Source of the DNA: Rhodoferax sp. PAMC 29310
GTDB taxonomy: Bacteria; Pseudomonadota; Gammaproteobacteria; Burkholderiales; Burkholderiaceae_C
DNA length: 64,000 bases
Assembly: GCF_017948265.1 (NCBI RefSeq)
Contig: NZ_CP072852.1
Span: 4,529,250 to 4,593,249 of the forward strand
Reading direction: 5' to 3'
Position 1 is the first letter of the stretch; the number at the start of each line of letters is the position of its first letter. The notes under the pieces were generated by a model. That model was given only the letters and a program-made list of their open reading frames with translations. It was not told the origin of the DNA and did not search any database. Position numbers and translations under genes: made by a program. This document shows, one piece after another, positions 9,531-20,359 of this stretch.

Positions 9531-10400
9531 TCAGCTTGAGGGCGGTGCGTCCGATGGCTTGGCGCCGCGCAACAGGGTGAGCGCCAGCAGGGCAGACGCC
9601 ACCATCAAAAACAGACTGACGGCGTTCAGAACCGGTGTGGCGCCTTCTCGCATGCGGCCATACATCATCACCGTAAGCGGCGAGTCCGAGCCGACCAGCA
9701 TTAAGGTGGTGTTGAAGTTCTCGAAAGACATCAGGAACGAAATGGCGGCGGCGCCAATGAGCGCGGGCTGGAGATAGGGCAGGGTCACGGTGGTCAACAC
9801 CGCCGCGCGGGATGCGCCCAGGTTGTAGGCAGCCTCTTCCAGCGTGATATCAAAGCGCTTCAGCCGTGCGGTGATGGTCAACGTGGCAATGGACACGATG
9901 TAGGCAAACTGCCCCAGCACCACCAGCGGCAGCCCAGGTCTCAAAAATTCCAGCTCCCATCCCCACAGGTCGTCGGCCAAGTTCGCAATGCGGCTGGCAA
10001 AGGCCAGAATCGAAATGCCCAGAATCACACCGGGAATCACTAAGGGCGCGAGCATTAGGAGGGACAGTGCCTGCTTACCCCGAAACTGCGTTCGTTCAAT
10101 CAAAAAGGCATTTGCCGTTCCGACCAGAACGGAGAGCACGGTGACCCAGCAGGCCACCACCACGCTGGTCCACAAACTGCCCAATAGTGCCGTGTCGGCA
10201 AACAGACCCTCTTGACCGGGTGTTGTGCCCAGAAACCACGCCAAGGTGAAGCCGCGCCAAGGCGGCGCAGGATAGGGCGCATCGTTGAACGCAAAGACCG
10301 CCACCACCACGAGCGGCAGGAACAGGAAGGCAAAAAAGATGACGCCGTAAATCACCGTGCTGGCGCGTAGCCAAGGGGGGCGGGGCAGGGAGAGGATCAT
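9531..10400 (-). CDS. Polyamine-type ABC transporter permease (PotC/PotI-like)
   Basis: An inner-membrane permease with about six transmembrane helices, opening with TVIYGVIFFAFLFLPLVVVAVFAF. It carries the EAA-loop signature (EEAAYNLGASRAAVLTTVTLPYLQPALIGA) that contacts the ATPase. Its 289 residues fit PotC/PotI. It is the last gene of the leftward ABC set and overlaps the upstream permease gene by four bases. Context suggests import of an amine-like solute. Confidence 0.92.
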   Translation of the reverse strand: MILSLPRPPWLRASTVIYGVIFFAFLFLPLVVVAVFAFNDAPYPAPPWRGFTLAWFLGTTPGQEGLFADTALLGSLWTSVVVACWVTVLSVLVGTANAFLIERTQFRGKQALSLLMLAPLVIPGVILGISILAFASRIANLADDLWGWELEFLRPGLPLVVLGQFAYIVSIATLTITARLKRFDITLEEAAYNLGASRAAVLTTVTLPYLQPALIGAAAISFLMSFENFNTTLMLVGSDSPLTVMMYGRMREGATPVLNAVSLFLMVASALLALTLLRGAKPSDAPPSS

Positions 10401-11284
10401 GATCGCTGCATCACTTCGCCAAACTTTTGGCCGCTCAGCCTCAATCCCAACCAGACAATGGCGGTGCTGAGTCCCAGCAGCAAGAAACCAAACGCGGCGC
10501 CTTGCTCCCAGTTAAAGCGGGTGATGAACTGGGTGTAGATTTGCTCGGTGAACCACTGCGAATTTTTGCCGCCCAAGAGCGTGGGCGTCAGGTAATTTCC
10601 CAGCGTCAGCATGAAGACCACAATGCAGCCCGCCACGATGCCGGGCGCTGCATGCGGAATCACAATCTGCCGCAAAATTGACCAGCCATTGCCGCCCAGG
10701 TCATACGCCGCCTCGATCAGTGAGTCATCCAGACTCTCCAGCGCGCTGATCAGCGGGATCACCATGAACAACATGGAGGTGTAGACCAGCCCGACCAGAA
10801 TGGTGGCATCGTGGTACAGCATTTCCACCGGTGCCGGGGTCACGCCCAAGGTGACCAGCAAGTCAGGCAAAACACCGGACTCGCGCAGCAAAATCATCCA
10901 ACCCAGGGTCCGCACGGTCTCACTCACCCAGAATGGAATCAGGCACAGCACAAACAATAGCGCTTTGCTGCGGCCCCGCACCAGTTTGGCAATGGTCCAG
11001 GCAATGGGGAAGGCCATCAGCAGAGTAATGGCGGTCGCCAATATCGACATGACGGCGGTGCGCACAAAGGTGTGCCAGTACAAAGGTTCTTCAATAAAGG
11101 TCAGGTACTGCGCAAAGCTGGGTTCGTAGACGCGAGGGGCCACGCGGGCCCGCAGCGACAGAATCGCCAACTCGACATGGGGCAGCAGAACCAGGCCTGC
11201 CAGCCAAACCACTGCTGGGGCCAACAGCAACATCAGGATCAAGCGCGCCTGAAGTTGGTTCTGGTTCGTCACCTCAGTGCTCAT
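10397..11284 (-). CDS. Polyamine-type ABC transporter permease (PotB/PotH-like)
   Basis: The partner permease, 295 residues and six predicted helices. Its EAA loop reads IEAAYDLGGNGWSILRQIVIPHAAPGI. It lies three bases after the ATPase stop and overlaps the next permease start (ATGA type), so all four ABC genes are almost certainly co-transcribed. Confidence 0.92.
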   Translation of the reverse strand: MSTEVTNQNQLQARLILMLLLAPAVVWLAGLVLLPHVELAILSLRARVAPRVYEPSFAQYLTFIEEPLYWHTFVRTAVMSILATAITLLMAFPIAWTIAKLVRGRSKALLFVLCLIPFWVSETVRTLGWMILLRESGVLPDLLVTLGVTPAPVEMLYHDATILVGLVYTSMLFMVIPLISALESLDDSLIEAAYDLGGNGWSILRQIVIPHAAPGIVAGCIVVFMLTLGNYLTPTLLGGKNSQWFTEQIYTQFITRFNWEQGAAFGFLLLGLSTAIVWLGLRLSGQKFGEVMQRS

Positions 11285-11287
11285 GGT

Positions 11288-12433
11288 TTATGCCGAAGCC
11301 TTGGACGCAAAACAAACGGCCCGCTGAGGATCAAATCCAAAGCTCACGGTCTCACCCACCCGCAAGTCAGACAGGTGGCCGGTCTGGGGCAAAGCAATGC
11401 GAAATTCAGTGCGAGATTTCTCTTCATGCAAGAGTACCGCCGAGTTGGCGCCGTCAAACAGCAAGCTGTCCACCTGCGCCCGGTAATGCGGCAGGCCGGC
11501 GTCGGCAAACACCTGGGTGTCGCGTGCCAGGCTGGCAACCTCCGGGCGCACAAAGGCTTCAACTTGATCACCTGTTTGAACCTTGCCTGATGCCCGCGTG
11601 GTGAGCACCATGCCGTCGTCGCCAGTGACGGTGACCAGGTCCCCGTTCACGGCCGTAGCGCGGCCTTTCACCTGGTTGTTGGCACCCACAAAGCCGGCGA
11701 CGAACGGGGTATCGGGTTGGTAGTAAAGCGCCTGAGGCGTTCCCACTTGCTCGAACCGGCCATGGTTCATGACTGCCACATGGTCAGACAGCACCAGCGC
11801 CTCTGATTGGTCGTGGGTGATGTAAACAAAGGTGGTGCCGAAGGCTGCCTGCAACTGTTTGAGCTCAATCTTCATGTGCTCGCGCAGCTTCAAGTCCAGG
11901 GCACCCAGCGGTTCATCCAATAGCAAAAGCGTGGGCTCCAGTACCAGACTGCGAGCGATGGCCACCCGTTGTTTTTGACCGCCTGAAAGTTGCTCCACGC
12001 GCTTGTTCTGCGCGCCGGGCAGGCTGACCCGTTCCAGCATCTCACCCACACGCCGCTTGATCTCGTCTGGTGCGACGCCCCGGCGAGCCAAGCCATAGCC
12101 CACGTTCTCGCCGACTGACATCATGGGAAAGAGCGCCAGGTGCTGAAACACCATGTTCACCGGGCGCCGGTTGGGTGGCACGCCTTTCATGGGCTTGCCG
12201 CCAATGCGAATCTCGCCAGAGTCCGGGCTTAAAAAGCCCGCAATCATGCGCAACAAGGTCGTTTTGCCACATCCAGAAGGGCCAAGAATGGAGAAAAAAC
12301 TGCCGCGCGCTACGCTAAAAGATAGTTCATCTACCGCCAGAAATCCGCCGTAGCGCTTGCCCACGCGCACGGCTTCCAGGTCAGGCTGAGTCCCCCCACT
12401 CAATGGGGGGGGGGCAGCAATGTCGGAACTCAA
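11288..12433 (-). CDS. Polyamine-type ABC transporter ATPase (PotA/PotG-like)
   Basis: A 381-residue importer ATPase with Walker A GPSGCGKTT, signature LSGGQKQRVAIARSL, Walker B LLLLDEPLGALD, the switch HDQSEAL and a C-terminal TOBE domain (about 280-380) typical of PotA/MalK proteins. The first dozen codons contain a C/G homopolymer and hairpin (12392-12414) encoding AAPPPLSGG. This could allow slippage or affect translation. Confidence 0.94.
   Translation of the reverse strand: MSSDIAAPPPLSGGTQPDLEAVRVGKRYGGFLAVDELSFSVARGSFFSILGPSGCGKTTLLRMIAGFLSPDSGEIRIGGKPMKGVPPNRRPVNMVFQHLALFPMMSVGENVGYGLARRGVAPDEIKRRVGEMLERVSLPGAQNKRVEQLSGGQKQRVAIARSLVLEPTLLLLDEPLGALDLKLREHMKIELKQLQAAFGTTFVYITHDQSEALVLSDHVAVMNHGRFEQVGTPQALYYQPDTPFVAGFVGANNQVKGRATAVNGDLVTVTGDDGMVLTTRASGKVQTGDQVEAFVRPEVASLARDTQVFADAGLPHYRAQVDSLLFDGANSAVLLHEEKSRTEFRIALPQTGHLSDLRVGETVSFGFDPQRAVCFASKASA
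12392..12414. repeat. Hairpin plus 10-base G tract at the start of the ABC ATPase gene
   Basis: On the plus strand CCCCCCA (12392-12398) pairs with TGGGGGG (12404-12410) around the loop CTCAA, and the G run continues to 12414 for ten G in total. It lies 7 to 14 codons after the ATPase start codon. Both the long homopolymer and the hairpin are directly visible; any effect on expression is a guess. Confidence 0.85.
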
Positions 12434-12444
12434 GCCGGGTCGCC

Positions 12445-13512
12445 TTAGTTGGCGGCCTTGATGCGGTCCAGCACGCGACCTTCAATTTCCTCAATGCCAG
12501 CTGGCACAGCGGGGTACCACTTCACGTTTTTCAAGGCGGCTTCGGGGAAGCTTTCCGCAAACTGGGCTTTGAGCTTGGCATCCATCAACTGGTCAGCACC
12601 CTTGGAGGCGGTGAAGTTGCCGGCCGCCGAGGCCACGCGGGCAGCGATCTCGGGGCGCATGTTGAAGTTGATCCAGGCGTAGGCGCCAGCGTCGTTTTTG
12701 CCTTTGGCAGGCAGCGCAAAGGTGTCAATCCAGCCCAGAGCGCCGGACTTTGGCGCAATGTACTGAAACTCAGGCTTTTCAGAGTTGAGCTTCCAGCCAC
12801 CCGTGTCCCACATCATGGCACCCACAATTTCACCGGCCCGCATGCCGTTGAGCAACTGATCCTTGTTGTCCCAGTAAAACTTGATGTTGCCTTTGCAAGC
12901 AATCATGGCCTTGCCGACTTCATCCATCAAGGCGCCATAGGCTTTAGGGTCACCGTACAACGCAAACGGGTCTTTGCCGGCGGCAAAGGCGAAGGCCAGC
13001 AGGGTTGGCCGTTTCAACCGCATGGCGGTCTTTCCCTTGACGTCGGCACGGCACAAGTCAGGGTAGTCAGCCATTTTGGTGAGTTTGGTGTTCACCACCA
13101 AGCCATCAGTGCCCCAGATGTGTGGCAGGCCATAGACTTTGCCTGCCAAAGTCGTGTTTTTCTTGGTGGCTTCCAGCATGGATGGGATGAATAACTCGGC
13201 TTTGAGTTTGCTCAAGTCCATCGGCTTGTAAATGCCGAACTCCTGTTGAGGGCCAGTGATGCGGTCTTGGGACGGCTGCGCTAGGTCAAAACCTGCACCA
13301 CCAGTGGCGCGCAACTTGGAAATCATCTTCTCGTTATCAGACAGTGTCACCTCGACGGTGTAGCCGCTTTCCTTTTCGAACTCGGCCACGATGTCTGCCG
13401 GGGCGTAGCCGCCCCAGGTTAGCAATCGGAGTGTTTTTTCCTGCGCCATGGCGGAGCCCGCCATGGCGAGCGCGACCACGCCTGCGGCGATAAGGGTGAG
13501 TTGAGTTTTCAT
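12445..13512 (-). CDS. Polyamine-type ABC transporter substrate-binding protein (PotD/PotF-like)
   Basis: A periplasmic binding protein of the spermidine/putrescine family, 355 residues from ATG 13512. It has a clear signal peptide (MKTQLTLIAAGVVALAMAGSAMAQ), and the mature start KTLRLLTWGGYAPADIVAEF is typical of the family. A GGAAAC-type ribosome-binding site precedes it. It is separated from the aldehyde dehydrogenase gene by 218 bp that carries its own copy of a conserved operator-like site (13647-13688), so it probably has its own promoter. The ligand could be a polyamine, choline-like amine or other cation. Confidence 0.92.
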   Translation of the reverse strand: MKTQLTLIAAGVVALAMAGSAMAQEKTLRLLTWGGYAPADIVAEFEKESGYTVEVTLSDNEKMISKLRATGGAGFDLAQPSQDRITGPQQEFGIYKPMDLSKLKAELFIPSMLEATKKNTTLAGKVYGLPHIWGTDGLVVNTKLTKMADYPDLCRADVKGKTAMRLKRPTLLAFAFAAGKDPFALYGDPKAYGALMDEVGKAMIACKGNIKFYWDNKDQLLNGMRAGEIVGAMMWDTGGWKLNSEKPEFQYIAPKSGALGWIDTFALPAKGKNDAGAYAWINFNMRPEIAARVASAAGNFTASKGADQLMDAKLKAQFAESFPEAALKNVKWYPAVPAGIEEIEGRVLDRIKAAN

Positions 13513-13646: not shown

Positions 13647-13688
13647 ATCCTAGGAACACCTGTTCTTCTTGCCTATCCCAAATCGGCA
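13647..13688 (-). promoter_or_regulatory. Operator/promoter-like site B upstream of the ABC binding-protein gene
   Basis: Read toward the gene it is TGCCGATTT, one base, GGATAG, 16 bases, TTCCTAGGAT. The same 42-bp layout, identical in all 25 named bases and in the 16-base spacing, occurs at 19215-19256 upstream of the permease gene. TAGGAT could serve as a -10 box with the TGCCGATTT block as an activator site next to -35. Its proximal edge is 135 bp from the start codon. Confidence 0.75.
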
Positions 13689-13730
13689 CATGACTGGTAG
13701 AAATAGGCAGGATTTACCCTAGGCCCTGGT

Positions 13731-15104
13731 TCACGGTTGACGCAAATGCCAGGCCTTGGGTCGGGTAAAGGCTTGAATGCCATAGGTGGACAAGGTCAGC
13801 CCTACGCCGGAGTCACCATGGCCGCTCCAGGGCAGACGTGGGCTGACGCGGTCACAGCAGTTCCAGTACACGGTGCCCGCGTTCACCTGGTCCAACAGGT
13901 TTTTCGCACGCGCCTCGTCGCGGGTGAAGATGCCTGCCGTCAAGCCGTAACGGGTATCGTTCATCAGCTCCACCGCTTGGGCGTCGCCCGTGACCTTTTG
14001 AATCCCGATGATGGGACCAAAACTCTCTTCACGCATGAGGGCCATGTCATGACTGACGTCGGCAAACACGGTGGGCTCAAACCAGTTGCCGGGCCCAGGT
14101 AGCCGCTTGCCGCCGGTGAGCAGGCGGGCGCCTTTGGCTTTGGCATCGGCCACTTGTGCTTCCAGCACGTCAAGCTGCGGCGCGCGGGTGATGGCGCCAA
14201 TGTAAGTGTCTGCGCTCATGGGGTCGCCCGCTTTGAAGGTCTTTACCGTGGCCACAAACGCCGAAACAAAGTCGTCGTGAATGGACTCGTGCACATAAAT
14301 GCGCTCCACCGAGCAGCAGCTCTGGCCCGTGTTGTACATGGCGCCGTCTGCCAGCGATTCGGCGGCTGTTTTGGGGTTGGCATCTTCGCAGACATACGTG
14401 GGGTCTTTGCCCCCCAACTCCAGTTGCACCTTGACCATGCGCGGCCCCAGTGCTTCCATGATGCGGGCGCCGGTGGCGTGTGAGCCGGTGAAGAACAAGC
14501 CGTCAATTTTCTGTGCGAGCAGGGCAGCGCCCACATCGCCACCGCCAATCAAGGTGATGAAGGCGTGCTCTGGCACACCCGCCGCGTGCAGCAGGCGGGC
14601 AATCGCCAAGCCGGTTTGCGCCGCGTACTCTGACGGCTTGTAAAGCACCGCGTTGCCCGTGAGCAGGGCGGGAATGAATACGTTTCCACCCACAAACCAA
14701 GGGTAATTCCAGGCCGAGATGTTGGCAATCACGCCCAATGGCGTGTGTTCAATTTGCTCAGTCATGCTGCCGTCAATGAAGACGGTTTCCGTGGCCTGTT
14801 CGTCATCCGCCTCTTCGATAAAGAAATCGATTCGGGCAATGAGGCCGTTAAGCTCGTTTCGCGACATCTGGATCGGCTTGCCGGTCTCACGTGTCATTGT
14901 GGCGGCCAGTTCATCCAGCTCGGCCAGCACACCGGCTTTGAAGCGTTCGATACAAGCTTGGCGTTTGGCCATGGGCGTGGCGGCCCACGGCTTTTGGGCT
15001 GCCCGGGCGAGCGTTGCTTTTGCGGCGACTGAAGTTGCGTCGTCCGCAGGAAGTTCGGCGATCAATGCGCCCGTGGCAGGGTTGTGAATGGCAAGTTGAT
15101 TCAT
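13731..15104 (-). CDS. NAD(P)-dependent aldehyde dehydrogenase
   Basis: This 457-residue ALDH-superfamily enzyme oxidises an aldehyde to its acid. The Rossmann segment ISAWNYPWFVGGN, the general-base motif LELGGKDP and the catalytic cysteine region NTGQSCCSVERIYV are intact. It resembles betaine-aldehyde, aminobutyraldehyde and succinate-semialdehyde dehydrogenases. ATG 15104 gives the usual family start MNQLAIHNPATG. It lies 17 bp after the alcohol dehydrogenase stop. In context it probably takes the aldehyde made by that enzyme, plausibly a gamma-glutamylated one. Confidence 0.93.
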   Translation of the reverse strand: MNQLAIHNPATGALIAELPADDATSVAAKATLARAAQKPWAATPMAKRQACIERFKAGVLAELDELAATMTRETGKPIQMSRNELNGLIARIDFFIEEADDEQATETVFIDGSMTEQIEHTPLGVIANISAWNYPWFVGGNVFIPALLTGNAVLYKPSEYAAQTGLAIARLLHAAGVPEHAFITLIGGGDVGAALLAQKIDGLFFTGSHATGARIMEALGPRMVKVQLELGGKDPTYVCEDANPKTAAESLADGAMYNTGQSCCSVERIYVHESIHDDFVSAFVATVKTFKAGDPMSADTYIGAITRAPQLDVLEAQVADAKAKGARLLTGGKRLPGPGNWFEPTVFADVSHDMALMREESFGPIIGIQKVTGDAQAVELMNDTRYGLTAGIFTRDEARAKNLLDQVNAGTVYWNCCDRVSPRLPWSGHGDSGVGLTLSTYGIQAFTRPKAWHLRQP

Positions 15105-15121
15105 GGCAGGGTCTTTCTGGC

Positions 15122-16255
15122 TCACAGGGCCGCTTTGAAGAGGGCGTCGAAATCGGCCGCAGTACAGGGGCGTGGATTTGTCTGATGACAAATGTCGGCG
15201 GTGGCAATTTCAATCAAGCGGGGAAAATGCTCAGGTTTCACGCCATGGGCCGCCAAACCGCCGGTGATGCCAATGCTTTGTTTGAGTTGCTTCAACCAAG
15301 GCACAAAGGCCGCACCACCGCCGGGCACCTTGCAGACGTGGGCGAGTTCATCGAACTTCTCGGGTGCGGACTCCATGTTCCACGCCAGTACCGTGTCAAT
15401 CATCAAGGCGTTGGCCAAGCCGTGGTGCAAGTCGCAGACAGCGCCCAAGGCGTGGGCGCAGGAGTGCACCGCGCCCAGGTCTTTCTGGAACGCAATGGCG
15501 CCCATCATGGAGGCCATCATCATGTCGGAGCGAGCCTTCAAGTCGCCCGGGTTTTGAACGGCAGTTAACAGCGCCGCAGCGGCAATACGTGTGCCCTCCA
15601 AAGCGATGCCGTCGCACAAGGGGTGGTAGGCGGGTGACAGGTAGCTCTCAATGTTGTGGGTCAGCGCATCCATGCCGGTGGCGGCCGTCACGTGGGACGG
15701 CAGGCCTACTGTCAGTTCCGGGTCGGCAAAGACGGTTTTGGCGAGAATTTTGGCGCTGAACACCACCCGCTTCAAATGGGTGTCGTTCTCGCTGACCACG
15801 CTAGAGCGCCCCACCTCGGAGCCGGTGCCCGAGGTGGTAGGCAAGGCGATGAAGTAGGGCAGCTCGTGGGTAATGGGCCGCATTTGTGGGTGGTCCCATA
15901 CGTATTCCAGAATATCGCCTTCGTGCGTAGCGGCTACGCCCACCACTTTGGCCACATCCAGCGCTGCGCCACCCCCAAAACCAATCACGCAATCGGCCTG
16001 ATGCGCCTTGTAGGCAGCGGCGCCATCCATGACCTGGCTGCAGGTGGGGTTGCCAAAGACGCCGGTAAATACCGCCACGTCCAGTCCGTCAAGATGTGAA
16101 ACAAACTCGGTCAACACCGGCAAGGCACCCAGCGCCCGGTCGGTCACGATCAAGGGGCGCTTGCAGCCGGCTTCGATCAAATGTTTTGCTACTAATTTGC
16201 GAGCGCCTGCGCCAAATTTGATGGGGGTAGGGAAGGAGAAGTTGGTAATAGTCAT
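15122..16255 (-). CDS. Iron-containing alcohol dehydrogenase
   Basis: A 377-residue group III (Fe-dependent) alcohol dehydrogenase. It shows GGGAALDVAKVVGV for NAD binding, ALPTTSGTGSEVGRSSVVS, and the metal ligands in the DALTHNIESYLSP and CAHALGAVCDLHHGLANA segments. It oxidises primary alcohols to aldehydes or the reverse. It lies between the ligase and the aldehyde dehydrogenase genes with gaps of 6 and 17 bp, so the three should act as successive steps. Standard PuuA pathways use an FAD oxidase (PuuB) here, so an alcohol dehydrogenase points to an amino-alcohol substrate. Confidence 0.93.
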   Translation of the reverse strand: MTITNFSFPTPIKFGAGARKLVAKHLIEAGCKRPLIVTDRALGALPVLTEFVSHLDGLDVAVFTGVFGNPTCSQVMDGAAAYKAHQADCVIGFGGGAALDVAKVVGVAATHEGDILEYVWDHPQMRPITHELPYFIALPTTSGTGSEVGRSSVVSENDTHLKRVVFSAKILAKTVFADPELTVGLPSHVTAATGMDALTHNIESYLSPAYHPLCDGIALEGTRIAAAALLTAVQNPGDLKARSDMMMASMMGAIAFQKDLGAVHSCAHALGAVCDLHHGLANALMIDTVLAWNMESAPEKFDELAHVCKVPGGGAAFVPWLKQLKQSIGITGGLAAHGVKPEHFPRLIEIATADICHQTNPRPCTAADFDALFKAAL

Positions 16256-16261
16256 GGTCGT

Positions 16262-17650
16262 TCAGATGATTTCAAAGTAACGTTTCATTTCATAGTCTGT
16301 CACAGCGTCCAGCCACTGCCGCCATTCCCAGTCGCGGGTCGCCGCGAAATGGTCGACAAAACCGTCACCCAGCCAGTCTCTGGCAATGGTGGATTTCTCG
16401 AAAATTCGGGTGGTCTCAATCAAGGTGCGCGGCGCCCGTGCAATGTGCTCGCCGCCCACATTGGTCCCAGTAATCGGGGGGGCTGTCAGCTTCAACCCCT
16501 TCTCCACACCGTCCAAACCGGCGGCAATCACCGCCGCCATGGCCAGGTAGGGATTCACGTCAGCGCCGGGGCAGCGTGTCTCCAGCCGGGTGGCCTTGGG
16601 GCTTCCGGCAATGACCCGAAAACTGGCGGTGCGGTTGTCCACGCCCCAAGTGGGTTTGACCGGGGCCCAATAGCCGTCCACCAGCCGCTTGTAGCTGTTG
16701 ATGGTGGGCCACATCATCGGTGCAAACTCCATCAGGCAGGCCACCTGCCCCGCAAGGTAGCTTTCAAACAGCGGGCTCATCTTGCGCGGGTTCTTGGCGT
16801 CAAAAAACAGATTGTTCTTGCCGTCAGACAGACTTTGGTGAATGTGCCCGCTGCAGCCTGGCAGCTGCTGATGCGGCTTGGCCATGAAGCTGGGCATGAT
16901 GCCAAAGCCCGCCCCAATCTCTTTGGTGCCCGTTTTGAAAAGAATGGCACGGTCGGCCTGCTCCAGTGCTTCGCTAAAGCCCAATGCCGCTTCATAGACG
17001 CCCGGGCCGGTCTCGGTATGCAGCCCCTCAATCGGCACGCCAAATGCCAGCATGTCGTCCATGATGGCATTCAGAAAATCCCGGTTCTGGTTCATGCGCA
17101 GCAGCGAATAGCCAAACATGCCCGGTGTGAGCACCTCGGGTCCCACTCCCTTCTTGGCCGCCCAGCTTTGAGGGGTTTCCAGAAAGTTGAACCACTCAAA
17201 CTCCATGCCGGTCATGACCTTGAAACCCATTTTTTCGGCACGCTTGAGTACCCGTTTCAGGGTCTGGCGGGGGCACTGGGCGTGGGCCGAACCATCGGCG
17301 TTGACGAATTCGCTCAAAAAGAAGGGCACATCGTCGTCCCAAGGCACATGGCGTGCGGTGTTCAGATCAAGCCGGGCCAGTGCGTCCGGAAAGCCGTGCT
17401 GCCAGCCGGTGGCCGTGGTGTTGTCATAGGTGACATCCATCATGTCCCAGCCCAAAACGACATCACAAAAGCCAAAGCCACCGCCGGGTGCCGGCTCGGC
17501 GGCGCCCAGAAACTTGTCGCGGTGCAGGTACTTGCCGCGCAGAATGCCATCAATGTCGCTGACCGCCACCTTGACTTTTTTGGCGTCGGATTGTTTGAAC
17601 TGGGTCAGTGCGGGGTGTTCGCCCGCTGTTTTTTTCTTTGAGGTCGCCAT
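16262..17650 (-). CDS. Glutamine-synthetase-like gamma-glutamyl-amine ligase
   Basis: A 462-residue member of the glutamine-synthetase superfamily close to PuuA and GlnA4 types. It keeps the metal-binding EFEWF segment (in place of the usual EFE/EFFLF), LHTETGPGVYEAAL, the nucleotide-site GCSGHIHQSL, the NSYKRLV loop and the RLETRCPGADVNPYLA block. Such enzymes join glutamate to an amine with ATP: putrescine for PuuA, ethanolamine for Streptomyces GlnA4, isopropylamine for IpuC. ATG 17650 is chosen because GGAAAGG stands just upstream. It follows the permease gene by 19 bp. The amine substrate is inferred from the neighbours to be ethanolamine or similar. Confidence 0.9.
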   Translation of the reverse strand: MATSKKKTAGEHPALTQFKQSDAKKVKVAVSDIDGILRGKYLHRDKFLGAAEPAPGGGFGFCDVVLGWDMMDVTYDNTTATGWQHGFPDALARLDLNTARHVPWDDDVPFFLSEFVNADGSAHAQCPRQTLKRVLKRAEKMGFKVMTGMEFEWFNFLETPQSWAAKKGVGPEVLTPGMFGYSLLRMNQNRDFLNAIMDDMLAFGVPIEGLHTETGPGVYEAALGFSEALEQADRAILFKTGTKEIGAGFGIMPSFMAKPHQQLPGCSGHIHQSLSDGKNNLFFDAKNPRKMSPLFESYLAGQVACLMEFAPMMWPTINSYKRLVDGYWAPVKPTWGVDNRTASFRVIAGSPKATRLETRCPGADVNPYLAMAAVIAAGLDGVEKGLKLTAPPITGTNVGGEHIARAPRTLIETTRIFEKSTIARDWLGDGFVDHFAATRDWEWRQWLDAVTDYEMKRYFEII

Positions 17651-17669
17651 AGAGCCTTTCCAGTGACGG

Positions 17670-19169
17670 TTAGAGGACGGGCGCGCCGCTGGCAACGCGT
17701 TGGGCCTTGGCGTGGTCAAGGGCGAACTCTTCTTCCGGAGAAAGAATCAGGCGCTTGCGGCCCACCAGTGCAAAGTAGGCGATGCCCACGCTGAACCAGA
17801 TGGCCACCCACATCACGCCTTGCTGATAAACCGGGTCCGTCAACTGAAAGTAAAGGGTGACAGACGCAATCAAAATCGTCAACACCGCGCCCACCACCCC
17901 AAACGGGCTGCGGTAAGGCCGTGCCAGCGCGGGAAAGTTCTTGCGCAGCAAAATGAACGACAGCGCTTGCATGATGTAAGAAAACATAGCGCCAAACACG
18001 GCCATGTTCAGCAGCGTACCGCCAATGACGGCTGCGCCCTTGTCCGCCCCCAGGCTGAACCACAGAATGAACATCACCACCAGGGCCAGAACGGCGCCGG
18101 TGATCATGGCAATGTGAGGCGTCTTACGGCTACCGTGGGTCACTGACAAGGCCGACGGAAAGTAGCCTGCCCGGCTGAGCGAGTAGATTTGGCGCCCCTT
18201 GGCGAAGATGATGGTGTGAAAGCTGGCGACCAGCCCGAGTACTGCCACTGTTGCCAGAGTTTTTGCAATACCGTCACCATAAATGGCTTTGAAACCGTCC
18301 AGCAAGGGCTCGCCTGAGGTGCCCAGTTTGTGCGAACCCACGCCGGCCACCGAGGGGTTGAGCCACAAAATCATGAAGGCCGACAAAATCAGGGTAAATA
18401 TGCCGGCCAGAATGCCGCGTGGCATGTCCCGCTTGGGGTCCACCGACTCTTCCGCCGCCAGTGGCAACTGCTCAATCGCCAAAAACAACCACACCGCAAA
18501 CGGCAGGCATGCCAGTACACCCGCCAGTCCCATCGGCAGGAACGGGCCGTGGCCTTCGGGCAAGGCGATCCCGCCTTCGCCCACGTTCATCGCCCACTTG
18601 GCGAAATCAATAGAGGGCAGGGCGCTGAACCAGAACACCACCAGGCAAGACAGCGCCAGCAGCGTCACGATCAAGGTCACCTTGAACGACAACTCCACGC
18701 CCACGATATTGAGACTCACAAACAAAATGTAAAACCCGATCCACCACAGCGGCAGCGTCTCTGGCGATGTGCCAAAAATACCCGCCATATAGCTGCTGAT
18801 GAAATAAACGATGACCGCCGGCGTCAGCACATACTCCACGTTTTCAGCCAGCCCGGTGACAAAGCCACCCCACTGACCCATGGCCGTGCGGGCGAAGGAA
18901 TAGGCGCCGCCGGTGTGGGGCAACGCCGGAGACATTTCAGCCAACGAAAAGGTCAGCCCCAGGTACATGATGGCGATGATGATGGTCGCCAAAAACATGC
19001 TGCCCCAGCCATTGGCCAGTCCCAGGTTCCAGCCGGAGAAGTGGCCGGAAATCACCGCCCCTACGCCCAACGCCCACAGGGACCAAACCCCGGCGTACCG
19101 ACGCAGCCCTCGTTTGTCAAAGTAACTCTGGTCAACTTTGGTGTATTGCACACCGGACGAATCGCTCAT
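17670..19169 (-). CDS. eat: APC-family permease, ethanolamine-type
   Basis: This 499-residue permease has about 12 membrane helices. The N-terminal region (YFDKRGLRRYAGVWSLWALGVGAVISGHFSGWNLGL) and AEMSPALPHTGGAYSFARTAMGQWGGFVTGLAENVEYVLTP match ethanolamine permeases of the APC superfamily better than PuuP putrescine importers. It is the first gene of the leftward operon, with operator-like site A 46 bp upstream and the EutR-like gene divergent. Substrate assignment is strong for the family but not proven; other amino alcohols or amino acids are possible. Confidence 0.85.
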   Translation of the reverse strand: MSDSSGVQYTKVDQSYFDKRGLRRYAGVWSLWALGVGAVISGHFSGWNLGLANGWGSMFLATIIIAIMYLGLTFSLAEMSPALPHTGGAYSFARTAMGQWGGFVTGLAENVEYVLTPAVIVYFISSYMAGIFGTSPETLPLWWIGFYILFVSLNIVGVELSFKVTLIVTLLALSCLVVFWFSALPSIDFAKWAMNVGEGGIALPEGHGPFLPMGLAGVLACLPFAVWLFLAIEQLPLAAEESVDPKRDMPRGILAGIFTLILSAFMILWLNPSVAGVGSHKLGTSGEPLLDGFKAIYGDGIAKTLATVAVLGLVASFHTIIFAKGRQIYSLSRAGYFPSALSVTHGSRKTPHIAMITGAVLALVVMFILWFSLGADKGAAVIGGTLLNMAVFGAMFSYIMQALSFILLRKNFPALARPYRSPFGVVGAVLTILIASVTLYFQLTDPVYQQGVMWVAIWFSVGIAYFALVGRKRLILSPEEEFALDHAKAQRVASGAPVL

Positions 19170-19214
19170 GTGGGGCTCCTGGATGTTGTTGGAGATCAGG
19201 GAAAGACCGAGTGC

Positions 19215-19256
19215 ATCCTAGGAAGTGGCTAACCGGCTGACTATCCAAAATCGGCA
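19215..19256 (-). promoter_or_regulatory. Operator/promoter-like site A upstream of the ethanolamine-type permease gene
   Basis: Read toward the permease gene it is TGCCGATTT, one base, GGATAG, 16 bases, TTCCTAGGAT. It repeats site B (13647-13688) exactly in the conserved blocks and spacing. It sits in the divergent region between the permease gene and the EutR-like regulator gene, 46 bp from the permease start, as expected of an AraC-family activator target abutting a promoter. Confidence 0.75.
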
Positions 19257-19354
19257 GGTTTACTTTGAGTAGCATCAATGTTTTTTTCAAATGCGGTAGA
19301 GTACGGGGTAAACCCGGGGTGTGCTGAAGCTGGCAATCCGGTCAGAATTAATAA

Positions 19355-20359
19355 ATGCCTGCTCAATCCGCGAACGCGATGTCCTTGGGTGCCCAGTACC
19401 TTGGACTGGGTGGGCGAGGCGTGTCTGCGTTGGCCAGCGCCACCTTTGCAGACGTCGAAGAGCAAGCCTGCGCATTGACAGGCTGGAATCAAGACTATTT
19501 GCAACTCAGCGCGGGTGCGTTTCAGGGCGAAATCTGTCAGGTTGAAGGCGCCTGTATCAAGCTCTTTATTGAGCGTGTGCAGCAGTCGCTGTTTCAAACT
19601 GGCGTTCTACCGCGCAACGTGCTGGCGGTTGGCATTCCGTTAAGCGCCAGTGGTGCTGGCATGTTCTGCGGCCAGGCTTGTGCGTCTGACGCGTTTCATG
19701 TGTTTTCCGGCTCGTCCGGATTCGAGTTCAGAACCTCTCAGCAGCACACCATGCTTGGCATTGAATTGCAGTTGGGCGATGGGTGGCTGAGCGACGTAGG
19801 GCCAGGCGTTGAGTCCGGTAATCACCGGGACTTACCCGCACAGGCCGGCGCCTTGCCAATGGGCCCTGCTGCGCTGGCCGAACTCAAAACCTATTTGCTG
19901 GCCTTGCTCCAGTCCGCGCAAACCGCACCTGATGTGTTGTCCAGCCCGGCCGTGGTCAACACCGTGGCCGATTTTTTGCTGGACCACATGGCCCGAAACT
20001 CGGTGGGCGCTGGCTTGACTGATGAGTTACCGGTTCACCAAAAGCTGGTGCAACGGGCCTGCGCTTTGGTCCATGAAACGCTGGAGCAGGCCCCCACCGT
20101 GGCGCAACTCTGCATCGACTTGGGCGTGAGCCGGCGCACCCTTCAAAACGGTTTTCAGCGCACCCTGAATGTCAGCCCGCTGAACTACCTCAAAGCCGTG
20201 CGCCTGGGCCAAGCGCGCCGGGCACTCAAGCAGGTGCGCTCCGTGACCGAGGCCGCAACGGCCTTTGGCTTCTGGCACTTTGGTCACTTCTCACAAGACT
20301 ACCTGACCATGTTTGGCGAGCGCCCCTCAGACACCTTGAGGCGCCACCAAAGCGACTAA
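19355..20359 (+). CDS. AraC-family regulator, EutR-like
   Basis: A 334-residue transcription activator. The C-terminal about 100 residues form a double helix-turn-helix AraC domain with VSRRTLQNGFQRTLNVSPLN and FGFWHFGHFSQDYLTMFGE, very like E. coli EutR (VSRRTLQNAFHAILG, WGFWHLGQFATDYQQLFSE). The N-terminal domain also shares the EutR phrase GWNQDYLQLSAGAFQGE. EutR responds to ethanolamine plus cobalamin; whether cobalamin matters here is unknown. It is divergent from the permease operon and probably binds sites A and B. The ATG has only a weak ribosome-binding site; another ATG lies 27 bases downstream. Confidence 0.88.
   Translation: MPAQSANAMSLGAQYLGLGGRGVSALASATFADVEEQACALTGWNQDYLQLSAGAFQGEICQVEGACIKLFIERVQQSLFQTGVLPRNVLAVGIPLSASGAGMFCGQACASDAFHVFSGSSGFEFRTSQQHTMLGIELQLGDGWLSDVGPGVESGNHRDLPAQAGALPMGPAALAELKTYLLALLQSAQTAPDVLSSPAVVNTVADFLLDHMARNSVGAGLTDELPVHQKLVQRACALVHETLEQAPTVAQLCIDLGVSRRTLQNGFQRTLNVSPLNYLKAVRLGQARRALKQVRSVTEAATAFGFWHFGHFSQDYLTMFGERPSDTLRRHQSD

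Follow-up and report, generated by a model that had tools for sequence, protein, structure and literature searches.

The 64,000-nucleotide stretch of Rhodoferax sp. PAMC 29310 analysed here (the window) contains two copies of a 42-bp promoter-like site, both on the minus strand, at 19215-19256 and 13647-13688. The first precedes an operon running from 19169 down to 13731, which encodes an APC-type permease that resembles ethanolamine permeases (17670..19169, minus strand; TIGR00908, 353.7 bits with a cut-off of 381.75), a glutamine-synthetase-like enzyme (16262..17650, minus; Gln-synt_C), an iron-containing alcohol dehydrogenase (15122..16255, minus) and an aldehyde dehydrogenase (13731..15104, minus). 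The gene set indicates that the second protein is probably a gamma-glutamyl-amine synthetase, and the clustering of synthetase, alcohol dehydrogenase and aldehyde dehydrogenase genes is what the gamma-glutamyl ethanolamine pathway requires. The site at 13647-13688 precedes the four genes (13512 to 9531, minus strand) of a Pot-like ABC importer made up of a PotD/PotF-like substrate-binding protein (12445..13512), an ATPase (11288..12433), a PotB-like permease (10397..11284) and a PotC-like permease (9531..10400); these subunits and the two dehydrogenases were assigned by profile matches. Divergent from the operon lies the gene for an EutR-like regulator of the AraC/XylS type (19355..20359, plus strand). 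Its C-terminal domain has two helix-turn-helix motifs, and it scores 74.9 bits against PF12833 HTH_18 (cut-off 33.6) and 132.3 bits against the NCBIfam EutR model (NF007522), below the curated cut-off of 319. Residue 311, a histidine, is located in the second recognition helix (GFWHFGHF).

An earlier note on this DNA had reported that the two copies are identical at 25 named bases, differ in their spacers and face their genes, all of which we confirm. The 42-bp pattern has no match in 100 dinucleotide shuffles of the window, and in the entire genome (4.59 Mb, up to three mismatches) its only matches are these two, with none for a reversed control pattern. A looser pattern (up to two mismatches) gave a third genomic match at C1:353517, which is weak, lies within a 453-amino-acid reading frame and was dropped as chance. 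In promoter A, the regulator box (TGCCGATTTTGGATAG; box A, 19241..19256, minus strand) contains a XylS-type half-site, TGCC-N6-GGATAG, that is kept in orthologues. Its last 3 bp overlap the likely -35, TAGTCA (19238..19243, minus), and a 17-bp spacer leads to the putative -10, TAGGAT (19215..19220, minus), assigned from the fixed-offset statistics of TANNNT given below. Promoter B is built in the same way: box B (TGCCGATTTGGGATAG; 13673..13688, minus), which recurs before the same importer at position 1748 of locus L005, a likely -35, TAGGCA (13670..13675, minus), and, at the same fixed offset, a TAGGAT match for the -10 (13647..13652, minus). By eye, a palindrome-like element near GGGTAANTACC is also visible in the window at about 19306-19315 and 13710-13719, and about 33 bp upstream of the box in L007, L008, L009 and L021; it is perhaps a site for another regulator.

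The earlier note staked its proposal on the blocks being conserved before orthologous genes. A regulator scan yielded 20 orthologue loci, and TGCC-N6-GGATAG is present exactly in 18 of them, facing a gene set; the remaining two, both from Mesorhizobium, have TGCA-N6-GGATAG upstream of the regulator. The gene set that follows the box is of the ethanolamine type, either the gamma-glutamyl cluster or the B12-dependent eutBC, in 14 of the 20. A protein search of 399 genomes of the family found a close regulator (E <=1e-40) in 16, Rhodoferax sp. PAMC 29310 included, and every one of these has the box (exact in 10, with one or two changes in 6), upstream of the regulator or, in genome G067, before the permease. 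Searching the same 399 genomes with the motif only, in a looser form plus the -10, gave six matches in five genomes (reversed pattern, 0); in each of the five, the space separating an EutR-like gene from a divergent permease gene holds a match, and box B accounts for the sixth. Across 36 loci (602 kb) TGCC-N6-GGATAG occurs 31 times, and eight controls with other spacings or letter orders occur 0-2 times; one of the 31 exact boxes (L022, position 12484) is not at a known target. The 36-locus set omits short or repeated fetches (L001-L003, L024-L034, L036-L044 and L056), L050 (the same locus as L020), L058-L060 and L064, and L065 and later loci were fetched after the count; as the set has near-copy rows (L053/L055, L018/L020, L015/L016, L046/L047), the counts are not independent. 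The operator recurs in Comamonadaceae and Methylophilaceae, with a variant form in Mesorhizobium.

What is conserved is smaller than 42 bp. The full pattern (up to three mismatches) matches only two of the 399 genomes, that of Rhodoferax sp. PAMC 29310 included, and the TTCC before the box is not conserved, so we dropped the whole block as a single element; the conserved unit is TGCC-N6-GGATAG with a hexamer of the TANNAT type placed 36 bp downstream of its first T. In a core set of 11 sites (L007, with its -10 one base further off, is omitted), TGCC, ATT, GGATAG and a C two bases further are invariant, and the A after that C and the T, A, A and T of the -10 are kept in 10; within the TAGNCA of the -35, the C is kept in all 11 and the A in 10. 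Over 47 sites (two each for the window, L005, L021, L054 and L070, and including the E. coli candidate described below), a TANNNT hexamer starts at +36 in 20 and at +37 in five, and at no other offset from 20 to 59 in more than two. This geometry fits a XylS-type half-site overlapping the -35, with TAGNCA, a 17-bp spacer and TAGGAT in succession. The composite unit described in the earlier note therefore survives in part: its upstream blocks and its -10 are kept in relatives, but the unit comprises a single XylS-type half-site together with a -10. The fixed position across species supports the reading of TAGGAT as a -10, and the XylS-like form of the upstream blocks, together with their conservation before orthologues, is consistent with the AraC-type activator site that the note had proposed.

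Comparison of regulators with their sites points to the protein that reads the box. We assembled 41 regulator-site pairs with one site per regulator (the second sites of L054 and L070 also have G at base 11, and the L070 site used faces the regulator gene). His311 is found in 33 regulators, and base 11 of the box is G in all 33; the eight regulators with another residue (Gln in five, and Leu, Tyr and Ser) have T, C or A at base 11 without exception. Among 1121 residue splits of the regulator, only that of residue 311 equals the base 11 split. On a tree built without those columns, the residue and the base each change four times, with matching states in every one of the 41 rows. Because G at base 11 is favoured by the score matrix with which the sites were located, the exceptions were found against its bias. 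A scan that ignored base 11 added relatives of the Leu311 regulator: all four with a readable helix have Leu311 and C at base 11, and a fifth, with a truncated helix, also has C. They belong to the same lineage as L052 and hence repeat one change, and one of the four, L075, has a stop codon within the matched frame. In a single lineage, the TGCA variant of the box coincides with changes in the first recognition helix. The comparison suggests that the first helix-turn-helix motif reads the TGCC half and the second the GGATAG half, an assignment in keeping with what is generally known of XylS relatives. The outcome is one residue-base rule, directly testable, for an EutR-like branch of AraC/XylS activators.

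Grouped by neighbourhood, 14 of the 41 regulators adjoin a gamma-glutamyl cluster, 19 are of the eutB type (including E. coli, and G067, where eutB is about 8 kb away) and eight have other or unseen sets. In the tree, which omits L062 (regulator cut by the contig end), the 14 gamma-glutamyl regulators form an 18-row clade (support 100/99) with three eutBC regulators and one unknown, and this clade is nested in a broader group of eutBC regulators. Two arrangements show that the position of the box is tied to the target genes as well as to the regulator: in Methylovorus (L015-L017), where the regulator is found beyond the distal end of the set, the box precedes an outer gene (Gcw_chp domain), the permease, eutB and eutC, and in G067 the box lies between a regulator gene and a permease gene arranged in tandem. 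Rhodoferax lacus has a second box (L021, position 4329) before a different, unrelated permease, and no ABC importer is present within that 20.9-kb locus. The importer is seen in three of the 14 gamma-glutamyl loci, preceded by the box in the window and in L005 but not in L004. The link between importer and amino-alcohol pathway drawn in the earlier note thus holds at two loci and fails at the third, and we consider that the importer probably belongs to the regulon. A short-chain dehydrogenase and a TIGR00907-type permease were also seen under the box, alone (L018, 7500-9925) or with eutBC (L012, L014, L062), and a 68% relative of that dehydrogenase follows the aldehyde dehydrogenase in L009. 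No target gene could be identified for the L069 regulator within 18 kb. L070 (2553-2609) and L045 (3926-3992) each have a divergent pair of boxes, separated by about 40-50 bp, of which one faces the regulator gene and the other the permease gene, an arrangement that could allow autoregulation.

Rhodoferax sp. PAMC 29310 has a second EutR-like gene, next to a permease-eutB-eutC set at C1:3.18 Mb (L061, C1:3176000-3190000), about 1.37 Mb from the window. Its own box is TGCCAAAATTTGATAC, at position 9261 of L061, with TACATT at +36. In the tree this paralogue clusters with EutR of E. coli (93/88); it has Gln at the position matching 311, and the boxes of its clade have T or C at base 11. E. coli EutR, like its Salmonella counterpart an AraC/XylS-type activator of eut that is known to respond to ethanolamine and adenosylcobalamin, is homologous to both proteins, with 30% identity to the window regulator and 38% to the paralogue. 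It differs from the former in having Gln in place of His in the recognition helix, and, unlike EutR, the window regulator adjoins a gamma-glutamyl cluster and not eutBC. The description of the window regulator as EutR-like in the earlier note is therefore apt as to homology, but the protein that groups with E. coli EutR sits elsewhere in the genome, beside eutBC.

Taken together, the residue-base covariation and the conserved box make it very probable that the divergent regulator, named as the likely binder in the earlier note, is the protein that recognises the box and turns on the pathway operon. Comparison of genomes shows that the box is conserved, how it is spaced, which genes it precedes and how it covaries with the regulator; binding, activation, inducer and substrate we infer from these. 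In the mechanism that we propose with considerable confidence, the two sites would be promoters switched on by the EutR-like regulator through class II activation. Its first helix-turn-helix motif would contact TGCC and its second GGATAG, about one DNA turn apart; as the box overlaps the weak -35 (TAGNCA), with the 17-bp spacer and TAGGAT beyond, the bound regulator would recruit RNA polymerase. Ethanolamine or a closely related amino alcohol is the probable inducer. Promoter A would drive the permease, the gamma-glutamyl-amine synthetase and the alcohol and aldehyde dehydrogenases, and promoter B the Pot-type ABC importer.

Several observations weigh against this mechanism. Only four changes lie behind the covariation, and a sign test on four (p 0.125) cannot pass 0.05. 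No second half-site was found: in the 40 bp preceding the 47 sites conservation does not extend past -1, and XylS binds two tandem half-sites where one is conserved here. The -35 is weak, a scan with the sigma-70 consensus picks up neither -35 nor any consensus promoter in the promoter A and promoter B regions, and TANNNT is at neither +36 nor +37 in 22 of the 47 sites (for example L048, L049 and L052-L055). The system is patchy, regulator and box both being absent from all four genomes of the same genus that were sampled, and the L004 importer, as noted, has no box. Lastly, the window operon has no amidotransferase gene, though eight of 13 other gamma-glutamyl loci do. That gene was found by similarity in L004, L005, L006, L046-L049 and G252, with Peptidase_C26/GATase domains in the two tested (L004 and L005); it is absent in L009 and L021, and the contigs of L007, L008 and L010 end before it could be seen. 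The sole match in the Rhodoferax sp. PAMC 29310 genome is a relative of 42% identity and partial length at C1:1335078. It lies in a separate cluster (L058, C1:1328000-1344000) with a glutamine-synthetase-like gene and a Pot-like ABC importer, a cluster that perhaps serves polyamine use.

Other explanations of the two sites have to be set beside this one. Two long near-identical stretches within 6 kb might be repeat DNA or the remains of a local duplication; we give this almost no weight, since the spacers differ, the flanks look unrelated by eye and the box recurs in distant genomes at the same functional place, and the earlier note was right to discount recent duplication. It is also improbable that another regulator, such as the paralogue beside eutBC, binds the box and that the divergent AraC gene is a bystander. 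The paralogue does exist and its own promoter has a related box, but with Gln at the 311 position it belongs to a clade with T or C at box base 11, in contrast to the G of the window boxes. Moreover, a search for eutB in eight genomes with a gamma-glutamyl cluster gave a match only in Rhodoferax sp. PAMC 29310, and the other seven (two of them 74-76% complete) nevertheless have the box. Somewhat less remote, but still unlikely, is that only promoter A is genuine, box B being decayed or due to chance and the importer co-transcribed with the upstream operon or unrelated to it. The boxless importer of L004 would agree with this, as would the lack, in the window, of any terminator-like site between the aldehyde dehydrogenase gene and the importer and the scarcity of the importer among gamma-glutamyl loci, several of which end at contig ends. 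Against it, box B is a perfect copy with its -10 at the usual offset, the orthologous importer of L005 is likewise preceded by the box, and in L021 another transporter has its own box.

The alternative that we take most seriously keeps the regulon and changes its substrate to some different amino alcohol or amine, such as alaninol or a diamine; we regard it as a substantial possibility, if less likely than not. A second route for ethanolamine would seem superfluous in a genome that also has eutBC together with an EutR-like gene of its own, and plasmid-borne relatives of the synthetase (45-46% identity) adjoin aminotransferase and Pot-type importer genes in the two records examined of 49. The names of the synthetase homologues, 120 among the matches listed, are variants of 'glutamine synthetase' or blank. 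On the other side, the regulators of the gamma-glutamyl clusters share their well-supported clade with eutBC regulators, the permease is ethanolamine-permease-like, and the gene set matches the gamma-glutamyl ethanolamine route as given in the available text of PMC6529630 and PMC10132767.

If ethanolamine is the substrate, one genome would hold two routes for it, the B12-dependent eutBC and the B12-independent gamma-glutamyl pathway, each with its own EutR-family activator and kept apart by residue 311 (His or Gln) reading base 11 (G or T), and the code would extend to E. coli EutR. We put this forward tentatively and lean slightly against accepting it as a whole. The available part of a review (PMC5821096) places the EutR binding site at the eut P1 promoter, immediately upstream of its -35. 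Upstream of eutS in E. coli K-12 (L064, position 24862) there is a weak candidate box, TGCCGAATTTTGTTAT, with CACGAT at +36; from shuffled counts, about 0.007 scores of at least 10 are expected in its 294 bp on one strand. The candidate is weakened by a control in which 5% of 1280 random 500-bp windows had a best score of at least 10.5 (some real sites are included) and by higher scores of 13.6 and 13.3 inside eut genes of the same 27-kb stretch. A search with EutS for more upstream regions matched none of 350 genomes, so that the candidate comes from one sequence. Nor is every eutBC operon under EutR, as the short eutBC locus of Klebsiella depends on NtrC and RpoN according to the available text of PMC11101070. 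As EutR-type regulators adjoin two unrelated enzyme routes, the box can help to find amino-alcohol transporters and enzymes whose substrate the protein alone cannot tell.

A literature search, conducted largely without subscription papers, found no earlier report of this regulon. The closest parallel for its operator is XylS, for which the half-site TGCA-N6-GGNTA and a 2-bp overlap with the -35 are given in the accessible portions of PMC4514859, PMC4225500 and PMC1360089. The half-site form and a promoter-proximal site overlapping the -35 are shared with XylS at Pm; the window boxes differ at the fourth position, with TGCC for TGCA, and the Mesorhizobium relatives keep TGCA-N6-GGATAG. For the enzymes, the parallel is the gamma-glutamyl ethanolamine route of Streptomyces (GlnA4), Phaeobacter, Chromohalobacter and Agrobacterium, whose gene set, so far as the available text of the two papers cited above describes it, has in common with the window a glutamine-synthetase-like enzyme, an alcohol dehydrogenase, an aldehyde dehydrogenase and a transporter; an amidotransferase-fold hydrolase is found in relatives of the window cluster. 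The neighbouring regulators in those systems are EtuRI (= EpuRI) and an RpiR-type protein, whereas the window has an EutR-like AraC protein, and the transporter of Phaeobacter is the TRAP system EtoX, in place of which the window has an APC permease and an ABC importer.

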